Position numbers and translations under genes: made by a program | Shown here: in pieces, positions 22,137 through 26,967 of the stretch | Layout: each line of letters begins with the position of its first letter | How positions within the stretch are numbered: the stretch's first letter is position 1 | Notes under the pieces: model-generated | Databases searched by the model: none | What the model was told of the DNA's origin: nothing | What the model saw: only the letters and a program-made list of their open reading frames with translations | NCBI RefSeq assembly: GCF_034377285.1 | Contig: NZ_CP139715.1 | Location: forward strand, 2,092,001-2,156,000 | DNA: 64,000 nucleotides | Source: Thalassobaculum sp. OXR-137 | Lineage (GTDB): Bacteria; Pseudomonadota; Alphaproteobacteria; Thalassobaculales; Thalassobaculaceae | Direction of reading: 5' to 3'

Positions 22137-22476
22137 GCGGGGGCCGGTCTCCTTGCGCTACGGGGCGTCATACGGAATTTGCGAAAAATTTCCCGGTGCG
22201 CCTTAACATGTGTCGTTGAAGCAAGTGGCAAGAACCGGCTGCTCCAGGCGCCGGTTGGCCCTTCTCCGCGGGAGAAACGCTCACGAATTACACGCGGTCA
22301 AAGATGTAAGTCCCTATCACAAAAGATAATTTCTCGAGTTTTCGCGATGACTTCTCGGATCCGATACTAGAGAGCATGGTTAACAAGCAATTAATTATAA
22401 CATTAAAGGTATTTTAATCAGTAACCCCCAATTATCTCCTACGTCGGAACCACCGCTTTGGATCATGGGGGAAGCT
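22137..22476. other. Intergenic region before the chemoreceptor gene
   Basis: This 340-bp stretch holds no gene. The first part has two small hairpins (AACCGGC/GCCGGTT near 22233-22256 and a TTCTC/GAGAA stem near 22262-22276) that could end the upstream transcript. From about 22290 onward the base composition drops sharply to AT-rich (for example CAATTAATTATAACATTAAA near 22390), the most AT-rich run noticed in the window and a likely promoter for the receptor. I could not assign -35/-10 boxes with confidence. Confidence 0.45.
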
Positions 22477-23289
22477 ATGAGCGCTGATCTACGGGCCCAT
22501 GTTGACTTTATCGAGCTGTCATCTGGTGAGAGAAAGCTCCTGGCAGAGTTCTTTCCTGTGGTCGAACAGCACCTTCCGGGAATTCTCACCCGCTTCTACG
22601 AAAAGCTCGGCGGCATTCCCCATCTGTCGGCCATGTTCGACTCCGCCGCTCGGCAGAAGCATGCCGCCACGGCCCAGGCGTCGCATTGGAAGCGCATGTT
22701 CACCGCCGGCGACAACCAGGACTATTTCGACTCGGTTCAGCGGATCGGCGAGGTTCACAACACGCTCGGCCTGGAGACCTCCTGGTACATCGACGGGTAT
22801 ACCCGTATCACGGCGGAACTCCACCGACTGGCGATCACCCATTCCCTGACCGGCTTCTCCATGAAGGCGGCCGGGGAGCGCGCGGGCAACCTGGTCGCGG
22901 CTTTGGACAAGGTGATCCTGCTGGACATCAACCTGGTGATCGGCGTGTATCTGGAGGCCAAGGAGCGGGATCACCGCAAGCGGCTGTCCCAGCTCTCCAC
23001 CCAGTTCGACGACTCCATCGGCAAGCTCACCCAGTCGCTGTCCTCGGCGGCGGAGGCCATGGGCCGGACTGCGGCCGGACTGACCGGAGAGGCCGATGCC
23101 ACCCGCAACGCATCGTCGATGGCCGTCTCCCGCGCCTCCGACATGAGCGTCAACGTTCAGACGATCTCCAGTGCCATGGAGGAGATGAGCGCCACCATCG
23201 CCGAAATCTCCCAGCAGGCGAACGGTGCCGTAAGGGAAATGCGCGGCGCGTCGGAACTGGCCTCGAACGCGACCGACACCGTCTGTTGA
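22477..23289 (+). pseudogene. Globin-coupled chemotaxis receptor, 5' fragment (interrupted by IS21-family element)
   Basis: Residues 1-165 form a protoglobin sensor domain with the proximal haem histidine H94 in RIGEVHNTLGLETSWYIDGY. From about residue 170 a coiled coil leads into a methyl-accepting signalling domain. There is no transmembrane segment, so the receptor was soluble, like HemAT aerotaxis sensors. The frame runs into the insertion and stops at 23287-23289 (ATDTVC then stop). Removing the element and one ACCGTC copy joins codon 269 in frame to the fragment after the insertion, giving 448 aa. Start ATG 22477 is chosen over ATG 22465 because GGGGGAAG precedes it. Confidence 0.9.
23278..23283. 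repeat. Target-site duplication, left copy (ACCGTC)
   Basis: Six bases immediately before the left end of the insertion, identical to 25625-25630. Confidence 0.8.
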
Positions 23290-23334
23290 TACCGGAGTGA
23301 ATCTCCCCAGAACCGCCGTTTGAAAATTCCCCAG
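23284..23334 (+). repeat. IS21-family left terminal repeat
   Basis: Begins TGTTGATACCGG and contains two CCCCAG motifs (TCTCCCCAGAACCGCCG and AAAATTCCCCAG). It is an imperfect inverted match of the right end at 25574-25624. Confidence 0.85.
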
Positions 23335-23343
23335 TTGGCGTGT

Positions 23344-23379
23344 CGCCGGTCATCCGGGGCGCGCCCCGGATGACCGGCG
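23344..23379. repeat. 36-bp perfect palindrome near the IS left end
   Basis: Two uninterrupted 18-base arms (CGCCGGTCATCCGGGGCG and its exact complement) with no spacer, between the left terminal repeat and istA. It would form a very stable hairpin in RNA read through from outside the element. Confidence 0.8.
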
Positions 23380-23426
23380 GCGGCGAGTTGCCGATGCTCC
23401 TCTCGGTCGGCGAGAGGAGTTCGGCG

Positions 23427-24695
23427 GTGATCAAACTGGGAGAGATGCTCATGATCTTGGAACTGCATCGGCAGGGGCTGTCTATATCGGCGATCGCACG
23501 GGAGAGCGGGTTCGACCGCAAGACCGTTCGTCGCTACATCGAGCGCGGCCTGGAGCCACCGAGCTATGGCCCACGCAGGCCACGGTCACGTCTGCTGGAT
23601 CCGTACACCCCCTATCTGCGCGAACGCGTGATGACGTGGCCTGGCCTGACCGGCGCCCGGCTGCTGCGAGAATTGCGGGACCTCGGCTATAGCGGCGGCT
23701 ATACGGCGGTGACGGATTATCTGCGTGATATCCGTCCCGCGCCGACACCGGGTTATGAGATCCGCTTCGAGACACCTCCCGGTCAGCAAGGACAGGTCGA
23801 CTTTGCTCAGTTCCAGGTGGTGTTCACCGATGAGCCGGAACAGCCGCGGATCGTGTGGCTGTTCTCGCTGGTCCTGGGGCATAGCCGCCTGATCTGGGCA
23901 CGGTTCGTCGCCCATCAGGACCTAGCGACAGTGCTGCGCTGCCACGTCGCCGCCTTCGACGCGATCGGCGGCGTGCCACGCGAGCTTCTCTACGACCGCA
24001 TGAAGACGGCGGTGATCGGCGAAGCTGCTGACGGGGAGCCGCGCGGCATCGTCTACAACAGGGCCCTTGTGGATCTGGCCCGCCACTATGGCTTCCACCC
24101 GCGCGCGTGCCAGCCCTACCGGGCCAAGACCAAGGGCAAGGTCGAGCGGCCGTTCCGATACATCCGCGAGGACTTCTTCTTGGCCCGTTCGTTCCGCAAC
24201 CTGGACGATCTGAACGAGCAGCTGCGGCGCTGGCTGGACAGTGTCGCCAATCCCAGGGTGCATGCCACAACCCGGCGGGTCGTGAACGAGGCGTTCGCCG
24301 AGGAGAAGCCGCACCTGCTGGTTCTGCCTCTGGCGCCGTTCCGCTCCGTACTACGTCTGGAGCGACGGATCTCCCGGGAAGGGATGGTAAGCGTCGGTGG
24401 CAACTTCTACAGCGTTCCGGATGCCACCCGGCGGCGCACGGTCGAGGTGCACACGCTCGCCCAGGAGATCAGGATCTTCGAGGACGGCACGTTGATCGCG
24501 ACCCATCCGGTCCTGGAAGGCCGCCACCAGCGCCGGGTGGCTCCTGGACACCGAAAAGGAGGGGGCTCCACAGGACGAAGACGTGGAGCCGACGGAGATG
24601 TGGTCGTCAGCCGAACCGGCGACGTGGTCGCTCAGCGCTCCCTGGAGTTCTACGACGCTGTCGCTCGCCGTCTTGCCCGGGAGTGCCGGTCATGA
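23427..24695 (+). CDS. istA: IstA transposase (IS21 family)
   Basis: Protein of 422 aa from GTG 23427, which gives the family start IKLGEMLMILELHRQGLSIS and has GAGAGGAG upstream; the frame is open back to 23340. An N-terminal helix-turn-helix (SISAIARESGFDRKTVRRYI) is followed by a DDE integrase core with aspartates in GQVDFAQFQ and LLYDRMKTAV and glutamate in KGKVERPFRYIRE. The C-terminal beta-rich domain contains VGGNFYSVPDATRRR. It cuts and joins the element ends. Its stop overlaps the istB start (ATGA), the normal IS21 arrangement. Confidence 0.95.
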   Translation: MIKLGEMLMILELHRQGLSISAIARESGFDRKTVRRYIERGLEPPSYGPRRPRSRLLDPYTPYLRERVMTWPGLTGARLLRELRDLGYSGGYTAVTDYLRDIRPAPTPGYEIRFETPPGQQGQVDFAQFQVVFTDEPEQPRIVWLFSLVLGHSRLIWARFVAHQDLATVLRCHVAAFDAIGGVPRELLYDRMKTAVIGEAADGEPRGIVYNRALVDLARHYGFHPRACQPYRAKTKGKVERPFRYIREDFFLARSFRNLDDLNEQLRRWLDSVANPRVHATTRRVVNEAFAEEKPHLLVLPLAPFRSVLRLERRISREGMVSVGGNFYSVPDATRRRTVEVHTLAQEIRIFEDGTLIATHPVLEGRHQRRVAPGHRKGGGSTGRRRGADGDVVVSRTGDVVAQRSLEFYDAVARRLARECRS

Positions 24696-25564
24696 GCGCT
24701 CCAGGTGATCTGACCCCGTCGACCCTGGAGCGGATCCGCCACGATCTGGTCGGTCTGAAAATGCCACGCGCCCTGGAAGCCCTCGATCAGGTCGTGCGCC
24801 GCCTCGAGCACGGGGAGATCGGTGCTCTGGAGGCCATCGACATGCTGCTCGCCGAGGAACTGACCCTGCGCGAGAACAGCCGCATCAAGACGGCCCTGCG
24901 CATGGGCCGACTGGCGACCATCAAGACGCTCTCAGGGTTCGACTTCTCCTTCCAGCCGTCGCTCGACCGCGATCGTATCCTCACCCTCGCACAACTCGGC
25001 TTTATCGGTCGCTGCGAGGTCGTCCACTTCCTCGGCCCGCCCGGCACCGGCAAGAGCCATCTGGCCATCGCCCTCGGCGTCGAGGCGGTGAAGGCAGGGC
25101 GCAGTGTCTACTTTTGCACACTCGCCGACCTGCTCGGGCAACTCGCCCGCGCCGAGCGCGAGGGACGGCTGACGGAACGCATACGCTTCTTCTGTCGACC
25201 GGCTCTGCTGATCGTTGACGAGATCGGCTACCTGCCCGTCGTTCCTGGGGGTGGCAACCTGTTCTTCCAGCTGGTCAACGCCCGATACGAGCGTGGTGCG
25301 ATGGTCCTGACCTCCAACCGCGGCTTTGCCGAATGGGGCGAGGTGTTCGGAGACCCGGTCGTCGCCACCGCACTCCTCGACCGCCTGCTGCATCATGCTC
25401 TGGTCATCCAGATCGAAGGCTCCAGCTACCGGTTGCGCCAGCACGCCGACCTCATGCCCGAGCACGTCCGCTCCAAGGCTACCATCACACCGCCGACCCC
25501 AGCACCGCTACGACGGCCAAGGGGACGGCCGCCCAAAAACGACCACATCACCGCGACAACCTGA
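24692..25564 (+). CDS. istB: IstB ATPase helper (IS21 family)
   Basis: Protein of 290 aa, somewhat longer than the usual 250-260 because of a basic C-terminal tail. It is an AAA+ ATPase with Walker A GPPGTGKSHLAIAL, Walker B LLIVDEIGYLP and a sensor block VLTSNRGFAEWGEVFGD. IstB assembles on target DNA and presents it to IstA. Translation is coupled to istA by a 4-bp overlap. The gene ends just before the right terminal repeat. Confidence 0.95.
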   Translation: MSAPGDLTPSTLERIRHDLVGLKMPRALEALDQVVRRLEHGEIGALEAIDMLLAEELTLRENSRIKTALRMGRLATIKTLSGFDFSFQPSLDRDRILTLAQLGFIGRCEVVHFLGPPGTGKSHLAIALGVEAVKAGRSVYFCTLADLLGQLARAEREGRLTERIRFFCRPALLIVDEIGYLPVVPGGGNLFFQLVNARYERGAMVLTSNRGFAEWGEVFGDPVVATALLDRLLHHALVIQIEGSSYRLRQHADLMPEHVRSKATITPPTPAPLRRPRGRPPKNDHITATT

Positions 25565-25573
25565 CCGGCGAAA

Positions 25574-25624
25574 CTGGGGAAATTTACTTCGGCGCTTCTG
25601 GGGAAATTACGGGCGGCATTGACA
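25574..25624 (-). repeat. IS21-family right terminal repeat
   Basis: Ends GGGCGGCATTGACA; its reverse complement aligns along 51 bp with the left end and also holds two CCCCAG motifs. Confidence 0.85.
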
Positions 25625-25630
25625 ACCGTC
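25625..25630. repeat. Target-site duplication, right copy (ACCGTC)
   Basis: Identical to 23278-23283 on the other side of the element. Confidence 0.8.
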
Positions 25631-26170
25631 GGCGATCTCGCCACCGTCACCACCGAGATTTCCAATGTCCTGAGCCTGATCCGCGACATCGCCGACCAGA
25701 CCAATCTGCTGGCGCTGAACGCGACGATCGAAGCGGCGCGGGCGGGGGATGCCGGCAAGGGCTTCGCGGTGGTCGCCGGCGAAGTGAAGAGCCTTGCCAA
25801 GCAGACCGGCGACGCGACGGTGGAGATCACCTCCCTGGTCGACCGCATCCAGCAGGCCTCCGGCCAGAGCTGCGAGATCGTCGCCTCGATCTCCGAGACC
25901 ATCGGCCGGATGGAGGAGATGGCCCAGGCCATCGCCGGCGCCGTCGAGCAGCAGAACGCGGCGACGGGCGAGATCACCCAGAACGTCGCCCAGGCGACCC
26001 AGGGCACCCAGGAAGTCTCCCGGCTTGCCGAGGACGTCCAGAACACCGCCGACCGCACCTCGGATGCCGCCGCCTCCGTGACCAGCGCCGCCGACGGACT
26101 GATGGCCGACATCAAGTCGCTGACCGAGCAGTCGTCCGCCTTCGTCGGCAAGATCAGCGCGATGAACTGA
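25625..26170 (+). pseudogene. Globin-coupled chemotaxis receptor, 3' fragment (signalling domain)
   Basis: About 180 codons of the receptor's cytoplasmic signalling domain: the hairpin tip [20 protein letters not shown] and [20 protein letters not shown], then the descending helix to the stop at 26170. It contacts CheA and CheW in intact receptors. A TTG at 25619 inside the insertion end could in principle start an orphan signalling fragment, but no ribosome site is evident. The reading frame is otherwise undamaged, so the insertion looks recent. Confidence 0.9.
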
Positions 26171-26176
26171 CCCCCT

Positions 26177-26210
26177 CCGGCTACGGGGCGATCTTACGCC
26201 CTGTAGCCGG
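26177..26210. terminator. Hairpin between convergent receptor and aldolase genes
   Basis: A 14-bp stem with one mismatch (CCGGCTACGGGGCG against CGCCCTGTAGCCGG) and a six-base loop spans the end of the receptor gene and the last codons of the convergent aldolase gene. Likely a bidirectional terminator. Confidence 0.6.
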
Positions 26211-26967
26211 GCTCCTCGCGGTCCAGCATCCGGCGCAGCGCTGTGAAGTGGCGATCCGCCACCGCCTTGCGCTCGGTCTCCATCTGACCCATCACCCGGG
26301 CCCTGACATTGTCGCCGATCTTCCGGAGGGTGCCGCCGGTCGACTTGGCGTGCACCTGAAACATGCAGGCGCGCTCCAGGTAGTACAGGTCGTTGAAGGC
26401 GTCGGCGACGGTCGGCCCGCTGACCATGACGCCGTGGGAGGCCAGCATCAGGATCGGCTTGCCGTCCATCTGCGCGGCCATCCTGTCGCCTTCCTCGGTC
26501 GCCAGCGCCAGACCTTCGTAATCGTCGTCATAGGCGATGCGGTCGTCGAACATCAGCGCGTTCTGCTCCACCATCTCCAGCCGCCCGCCTTCCAGCAGGG
26601 TCAGCGCCGTGGCGTAGGGCTGGTGGGTGTGCAGGACCACCGCGGCGTTCGGGTGGTTGATGTGGATGCGCGAGTGGATGCAGAAGGCCGTCGCTTCCAC
26701 CGTCTCGCGGCCCTCCAGCACCGTGCCGTCCACGTCGCACAGGACCAGGGACGAGGCGGTGATCTCCGACCAGTGCCAGCCGAACGGGTTGATCAGGAAC
26801 TTATCGCCCTTGATGCTGCCGTCCGGCTCCGGCACGGCGGCCGAGAAGTGGTTGTCGACCCCTTCGTTCAGGCCCATGCGCGCAGCCCAGCGCAGGGCGC
26901 AGGCGAGATCGACGCGAAGCTGCTGGACGGTGTCCGCGTACGAGGCGGGTGTGCTCATCTCGTTCAT
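26194..26967 (-). CDS. Class II aldolase/adducin family protein
   Basis: Protein of 257 aa in the class II aldolase/adducin fold. Zinc-binding histidines H113 and H115 (VVLHTHQPYA) and H178 (ASHGVMV) are present, with E91 in the region of the catalytic acid. Bacterial members act on phosphosugars or related hydroxy-acids; the substrate here is unknown. ATG 26967 is preceded by an ideal GGGAGGAAA site. It lies 13 bp downstream of the PhyH gene in the same direction, so the pair form an operon. Confidence 0.87.
   Translation of the reverse strand: MNEMSTPASYADTVQQLRVDLACALRWAARMGLNEGVDNHFSAAVPEPDGSIKGDKFLINPFGWHWSEITASSLVLCDVDGTVLEGRETVEATAFCIHSRIHINHPNAAVVLHTHQPYATALTLLEGGRLEMVEQNALMFDDRIAYDDDYEGLALATEEGDRMAAQMDGKPILMLASHGVMVSGPTVADAFNDLYYLERACMFQVHAKSTGGTLRKIGDNVRARVMGQMETERKAVADRHFTALRRMLDREEPGYRA

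Follow-up and report, generated by a model that had tools for sequence, protein, structure and literature searches.

Interruption of a HemAT-type chemoreceptor gene by an IS21-family element in Thalassobaculum sp. OXR-137

In a 64,000-nucleotide stretch of the Thalassobaculum sp. OXR-137 genome (the window), an insertion sequence separates two halves of what reads as a single chemoreceptor gene. What was this gene, how recently was it split, and does its interruption deprive the cells of oxygen-guided swimming? We consider it highly probable that an IS21-family element, in a recent burst, inserted into a HemAT-type chemoreceptor gene and that oxygen sensing by this receptor was lost, while aerotaxis may persist.

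The interrupting sequence is a 2,341-bp IS21-family element on the forward strand (positions 23284–25624 of the window), delimited by copy alignment, flank comparison and NCBIfam profiles. Its ends are fixed by the 12 copies found in the genome, all exactly 2,341 bp long and 100% identical, with flanks that vary from copy to copy. The 6-bp target duplication ACCGTC can be read on the left (23278–23283) and on the right (25625–25630). The istA gene (23340–24695, forward strand) has profile matches to the helix-turn-helix, rve/DDE core and Mu-type C-terminal domain of a transposase and starts at GTG 23340 or further downstream, for instance at ATG 23445. The gene for the helper ATPase, istB (24692–25564, forward strand), overlaps istA by ATGA. 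Both pass the NCBIfam cut-offs for IS21 proteins (istA, NF033546, 316.3 bits against 160; istB, NF038214, 269.5 bits against 200). Two repeat units lie at the left end (23304–23334, with TCCCCAG/TTCCCCAG; element positions 21 and 44) and two at the right (TTCCCCAG on the minus strand, 25574–25605; positions 20 and 44 from that end). With at least two repeat units per end and an outermost TG...CA, the element has the termini described for IS21 in an earlier report, whose own element makes a 5-bp target duplication (PMC10122671). Furthermore, a perfect 36-bp palindrome (23344–23379) lies near the 5′ end of istA. The copies, flanks and NCBIfam scores thus bear out the original prediction of an intact IS21 element with matching ends, both genes and a 6-bp ACCGTC duplication.

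Relatives of the element share its istA/istB layout: a plasmid copy in Jiella pelagia (78.3% DNA identity over 99% of the element), the ISRel3 family (73.8–74.7% over 100%) and the ISMtsp8 family (78.1% over 55%). At these identities all three are too distant to count as copies of this element. Plasmid records matching the element number 85; in 13 the match spans 80% or more of its length, with identities of no more than 78.3%. Two of the 85 match at 80–95% identity, neither of them among the best 30 of the 85 listed.

The split gene has a 5′ part (22477–23283, forward strand) that carries codons 1–269, with a protoglobin domain (Y41, H94) and the start of the signalling helix, and a 3′ part (25631–26170, forward strand) that carries codons 270–448 and the stop, with the rest of the signalling hairpin. 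The empty site reads as an open frame of 448 amino acids that includes H94. Pfam detects Protoglobin in the left half (1.3e-33; 116.7 bits against a cut-off of 25) and MCPsignal in the right (8.3e-33; 114.1 bits); an NCBIfam search of the left half gave no match. Y41, H70 and H94 are invariant in this globin and in 20 homologous globin domains, two of them paralogues from the same genome. The row of one further protein (L104) was excluded from these residue counts because it gave no usable alignment. L104 is a 712-aa MCP whose Protoglobin match falls below the threshold.

HemAT of Bacillus subtilis (PDB 1or4/1or6) combines, like the OXR-137 receptor, an N-terminal globin with a C-terminal MCP hairpin. 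H94 aligns in an ungapped stretch with position 123 of the 1or4 chain, reported as the haem histidine of HemAT (PMC13401364; PMC10851874), and Y41 corresponds to Y70 by counting along the same alignment. Haem binding by the receptor globin would follow from these conserved residues. HemAT Thr95 is replaced by Ala66 in OXR-137, and its ligand behaviour may therefore differ from that of HemAT. A structure-database comparison ranked HemAT 1or4 third (5.6e-6); a coiled-coil spike construct scored highest, and the matches of the receptor coiled coil to viral spike constructs were set aside as reflecting helix composition. Another alphaproteobacterial receptor, Atu1027 of Agrobacterium tumefaciens, is likewise described as a cytoplasmic globin-coupled chemoreceptor; it has an intact 1500-bp ORF and is reported to be necessary for normal aerotaxis (PMC10851874). 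The OXR-137 gene, split by the insertion, is by its sequence best read as a broken member of the globin-coupled HemAT-type chemoreceptors rather than a working one: the MCP domain is still present in the DNA but no longer in the same polypeptide as the globin, the element and a stop codon lying between them. The joined halves had been predicted to encode a protoglobin sensor with haem histidine H94 followed by a signalling hairpin, and the Pfam domains and the 1or4 alignment agree. The original prediction also made the receptor a soluble one.

An uninterrupted orthologue in Thalassobaculum litoreum DSM 18839 aligns with the joined protein over all 448 residues, 399 of them identical, without a gap (84% identity over the 269 residues of the left half), as expected if removing the element and one ACCGTC restores a continuous 448-codon receptor. 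The flanks of the locus are collinear with T. litoreum, with the same gene neighbourhood and 80–93% DNA identity. The gene is also uninterrupted in the metagenome-assembled genome bin.58, which, like T. litoreum, lies outside this species. Private amino-acid changes are few on the OXR-137 branch (8 in the left half and 2 in the right, against 19 and 2 on the T. litoreum branch), and dN/dS between the two species is 0.14 in the left half, 0.055 in the right and 0.124 over the whole gene. These low values indicate that neither half has decayed, as originally proposed, and an old pseudogene is rejected for the same reason. Together with the intact gene in T. litoreum and bin.58, the undecayed halves suggest that the insertion is recent.

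The history of the element points the same way. The OXR-137 genome holds at least 12 copies (a minimum, 40 of 187 candidates having been scored), and their identity implies recent mobility. Exact target duplications of 5–6 bp flank 11 of the 12, the exception being the site L017. One copy was found in T. litoreum, identical at every retained base (2,317 of 2,341) and lacking 24 bp that include one of the two right-end repeats. The average nucleotide identity of the two hosts is reported as 89.25% (PMC12016528). An element this similar in hosts at about 89% identity therefore suggests that it passed between species recently and then multiplied in OXR-137. The prediction of a probably recent insertion gains from this near-identity as well as from the identical copies and undecayed halves. 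Overall, the receptor interruption is an ordinary IS knock-out within a recent IS burst, a common kind of mutation.

At this site, IstA and IstB would have placed a copy after codon 269 and duplicated 6 bp. The insertion point would fall about 37 residues short of the tip of the signalling hairpin, within its descending helix. The T. litoreum protein was modelled from a two-sequence alignment, with mixed confidence (mean pLDDT 67.2, below 55 in the globin and 64–89 in ten-residue blocks from residue 171); its last two helices in this model span residues 129–306 and 308–445 and so place codon 269 before the tip. The hairpin tip is the contact for CheA and CheW. A TGA inside the left end of the element (23287–23289, forward strand) closes the receptor frame after 269 receptor residues and one Cys, and this globin fragment, without the tip, would be the only product that can now be made from the 5′ part. 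Oxygen sensing through the split receptor was thus very probably lost.

Loss of one receptor need not abolish a behaviour, and we find it somewhat probable that the gene was split as a side effect of the burst, at little or no cost to the cell, the receptor being redundant and aerotaxis continuing through PAS-type receptors. The burst recorded in 12 identical copies favours this reading, as does a genome that retains one CheA match and 27 other MCP genes, three of them with two to four PAS domains. However, one of the three (L103) matches the MCPsignal profile only in part, and the interspecies dN/dS of 0.124 indicates a constrained receptor that normally matters. The suggestion that the isolate may have lost oxygen-guided swimming is partly supported: this receptor very probably no longer works, and the loss of all aerotaxis is unsupported because CheA and the other receptor genes remain and may sustain the behaviour. 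It is quite unlikely that the right-hand fragment is still made and signals constantly as a sensor-stripped receptor. There is a precedent in Tsr, whose soluble signalling fragments can be constitutively active, and an in-frame ORF from TTG 25619, in the right end of the element, runs into the 3′ part and includes the hairpin tip. Such a fragment would nonetheless require a start like this TTG, ahead of which no strong ribosome site is visible by eye, and a scan of positions 22200–26300 returned no promoter-like or terminator-like sites (0.5 and 2.1 expected in shuffles), weak evidence since the receptor gene's own promoter was also missed. An outward promoter from the element was rejected on the same weak evidence. 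Misplacement of the element by the assembly is rejected as scarcely credible: 12 identical repeats can mislead assemblers, but the site has its own duplication matching its flanks, is otherwise collinear with T. litoreum and comes from an ONT and Illumina assembly reported to have been made through Trycycler (PMC12016528).

The remaining sites raise the question of selection. Three OXR-137 protoglobin genes pass the Pfam cut-off and two carry the element, which could mean that selection favoured cells without globin-based oxygen sensing; we regard this as unlikely. In the second gene the globin domain is at C1:1474172–1474702, and the element lies in the open frame on its 5′ side, probably in the 5′ coding part. 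For a globin target of 2.5 kb fixed in advance, at least two hits among 12 random insertions have a probability of 1.3e-5, but the comparison is post hoc and a crude correction for an assumed 500–2000 small gene families raises the figure to 0.6–2.6%. In evolved B. subtilis pellicles hemAT is reported to be mutated above expectation, in a text that leaves the effect on function unstated (PMC10654089). Against selection, the two globin genes differ in architecture, and the second, whose globin domain remains whole within an ORF of 239 aa beginning in the element, may still be alive. No theme links the remaining 10 sites, several of which lie in apparent mobile genes, and a single functional theme across the 12 was rejected because the targets are mixed. 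Among these sites, a third copy interrupts a reductase gene (L013), possibly bciA from co-occurrence only; NCBIfam matched neither of its pieces. More doubtful still is a broader reading, in which one invading element, through selection, disabled or rewired two of three protoglobin genes and a possible bacteriochlorophyll gene, so that a lineage of the vent plume or of culture was being stripped in parallel of the sensing or use of oxygen and of light.

We therefore favour the ordinary knock-out of a HemAT-type receptor in a recent burst. The two species form a small natural experiment on IS21: with both right-end repeats in place 12 copies were found, and with one of them lost a single copy, a contrast that agrees with the report that IstA requires two repeats per end. 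The description of OXR-137, from a vent plume, stresses how many chemotaxis genes it has and that it carries genes for bacteriochlorophyll (PMC12016528). Despite this inventory, the same element breaks a receptor of the oxygen type and what may be bciA, and the split receptor illustrates how gene inventories may overstate the abilities of an organism.

The gene split in Thalassobaculum sp. OXR-137 (22477..23283 and 25631..26170, forward strand) encodes a HemAT-type globin-coupled chemoreceptor, interrupted after codon 269 by an IS21-family element (23284–25624). Codons 1–269 contain the Protoglobin domain and codons 270–448 the remainder of the MCP signaling domain. With the element and one ACCGTC copy removed, the reading frame runs unbroken for 448 codons, 399 of them identical to the protein of Thalassobaculum litoreum DSM 18839, the nearest named relative with the receptor gene, with zero gaps. 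The gene is also uninterrupted in the MAG bin.58 (loci L027 and L033, on one and the same contig). A search of 146 genomes, OXR-137 included and with at most 17 candidates scored per genome, recovered 83–84% matches only in T. litoreum and bin.58 (next best, 45%). Judged by identical contig positions, records G002 and G004 duplicate T. litoreum and bin.58, respectively, so the intact gene has two independent witnesses, not four. Among the other genomes of the genus, the search found no close match in G003 (best 5.2e-10) and none in G001 and G005. Counted along the ungapped alignment, H94 and Y41 correspond to HemAT H123 and Y70, whereas the position of HemAT Thr95 is occupied by Ala66. Y41, H70 and H94 are invariant across OXR-137 and 20 homologous globin domains. 

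The OXR-137 genome has 5,646,840 bases in three contigs (the window being C1:2092001–2156000); its published description gives a Moytirra vent plume origin, three contigs, 5.65 Mb and 67.0% GC (PMC12016528). Window GC ranges from 0.62 to 0.71 per 2-kb step. The genome carries at least 12 copies of the element (11 on the chromosome, one on the 169-kb contig C2), each 2,341 bases at 100% identity among the 40 of 187 candidates scored; the left 120 bases as query again gave 12 matches (40 of 87 candidates scored). Flanks vary between copies, and 11 of the 12 sites have an exact 5–6 bp duplication; the exception is L017 (C1:2898554–2900894; TGAGG/TGAGC). Both istA and istB pass curated IS21 cut-offs, and each end has two copies of a repeat unit. 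These identical full copies, the exact duplication and the restored frame confirm the predicted splitting by an intact element. Near the istA 5′ end lies a perfect 36-bp palindrome (23344–23379), whose neighborhood matches the element of a distant relative (G007) at 92% over 39 bp. The element also matches 85 plasmid records, 13 of which, with at least 80% coverage, are 73.8–78.3% identical.

Among the 146 genomes, at two scored candidates each, a further near-identical copy turned up only in T. litoreum (2,317 bp, 100% over positions 1–2301 and 2315–2341, duplication GCAGG). It lies inside a Tn3-type transposase gene (DDE_Tnp_Tn3, 7.2e-114), and the same contig encodes a MerR-type regulator (1.2e-24) some 900 bp from it. 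Because the hosts share an ANI of just 89.25% (PMC12016528), a recent transfer of the element from one lineage to the other is very probable. The T. litoreum copy lacks 24 bp, including one of two right-end repeats, and should be immobile, since IstA requires two complete repeats at each end (PMC10122671). One copy was found in T. litoreum (one right-end repeat), against at least 12 in OXR-137 (both repeats). One caveat is that T. litoreum is represented by a draft assembly of about 50 contigs, in which repeats can collapse. The element left end had one match in T. litoreum and zero in G003 and G004.

The interrupted gene still resembles a functional one, which marks the insertion as recent. 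Between OXR-137 and T. litoreum, dN/dS is 0.14 for the left part and 0.055 for the right; with bin.58 as third sequence, private amino-acid changes (left/right) number 8/2 in OXR-137 and 19/2 in T. litoreum. The low dN/dS and the lack of excess private changes relative to T. litoreum agree with the earlier claim of no further damage in either half. The 12 difference-free copies are consistent with a recent insertion, but gene conversion could likewise maintain their sameness. Together, the undecayed gene and identical copies support recency beyond what the sequence alone offered at first reading.

By our interpretation of gene and domain matches, seven of the 12 insertions are inside a gene, four are near or ahead of an ORF 5′ end (L010, L014, L015, L016) and one is intergenic (L017). 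The intragenic targets are this receptor, a second globin (L018), a transposase (HTH_21 and rve), ArdC, a type IV coupling protein, an NAD-binding reductase (L013, C1:4892029–4894730) and a partition-like protein, whose best match of 47.4 bits falls well short of the required 640. The reductase is uninterrupted in T. litoreum (90%) and bin.58 (68%). The gene may be bciA, which encodes the 8-vinyl reductase of the bacteriochlorophyll pathway, because its strong matches (E<1e-40; 4 of 61 genomes) all fall within the six of 61 genomes carrying reaction-centre genes; of two weaker matches, one is in a genome with such genes and one is not. An NCBIfam search gave the reductase no name, and the OXR-137 genome has no match to PF04432 (BciB-type). 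In Rhodobacter, another enzyme, COR, can substitute for BciA (PMC4432870).

Three OXR-137 loci pass the Protoglobin cut-off (a fourth falls short), and two of these three genes contain the element. The second (L018, C1:1474172–1477044) has an identical copy ahead of the globin domain (C1:1474172–1474702; duplication ATAAGG) and is a single-domain protoglobin with a PAS histidine kinase/receiver gene upstream. Its frame stays open over the element junction for 47 codons upstream, with a candidate ATG start, and the element probably sits in the 5′ coding part. A 239-aa ORF initiating within the element retains the entire globin domain, so the gene may have survived the hit. The best T. litoreum match to this globin is only 53% identical; the figure for OXR-137's third globin gene, which has no insertion, is 59%. 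Two hits in a preset globin target have a chance of 1.3e-5, rising to 0.6–2.6% after crude correction for 500–2000 small gene families; the double hit is no more than a hint. Adjoining the element-hit globin gene is a degraded second reductase piece (C1:1473894–1474118; 87% identical to the L013 gene, one TAG). Separately, a 712-aa MCP with PilZ (L104, C1:711500–715500) scores 20.2 bits for Protoglobin, below the cut-off of 25; by eye, it apparently lacks the proximal histidine.

Two codons into the element (TGT TGA) the receptor frame terminates, so the left product consists of 269 receptor residues and a single added Cys. A structure model of the T. litoreum receptor places the hairpin turn at residue 307; the cut therefore falls in the descending helix ahead of the tip, and the region contacting CheA and CheW is missing from the left product. 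A right-hand fragment could start at TTG 25619. Loss of the split receptor's function is nearly certain, but the same does not hold for aerotaxis. The genome has one CheA-type match, and a domain scan covered the 27 further MCP genes identified, three of them with PAS domains (L101, L081 and L103, the last matching the MCPsignal profile in part only). The phenomenon is a familiar IS knock-out, and the predicted loss of oxygen-guided behavior in this isolate is plausible.
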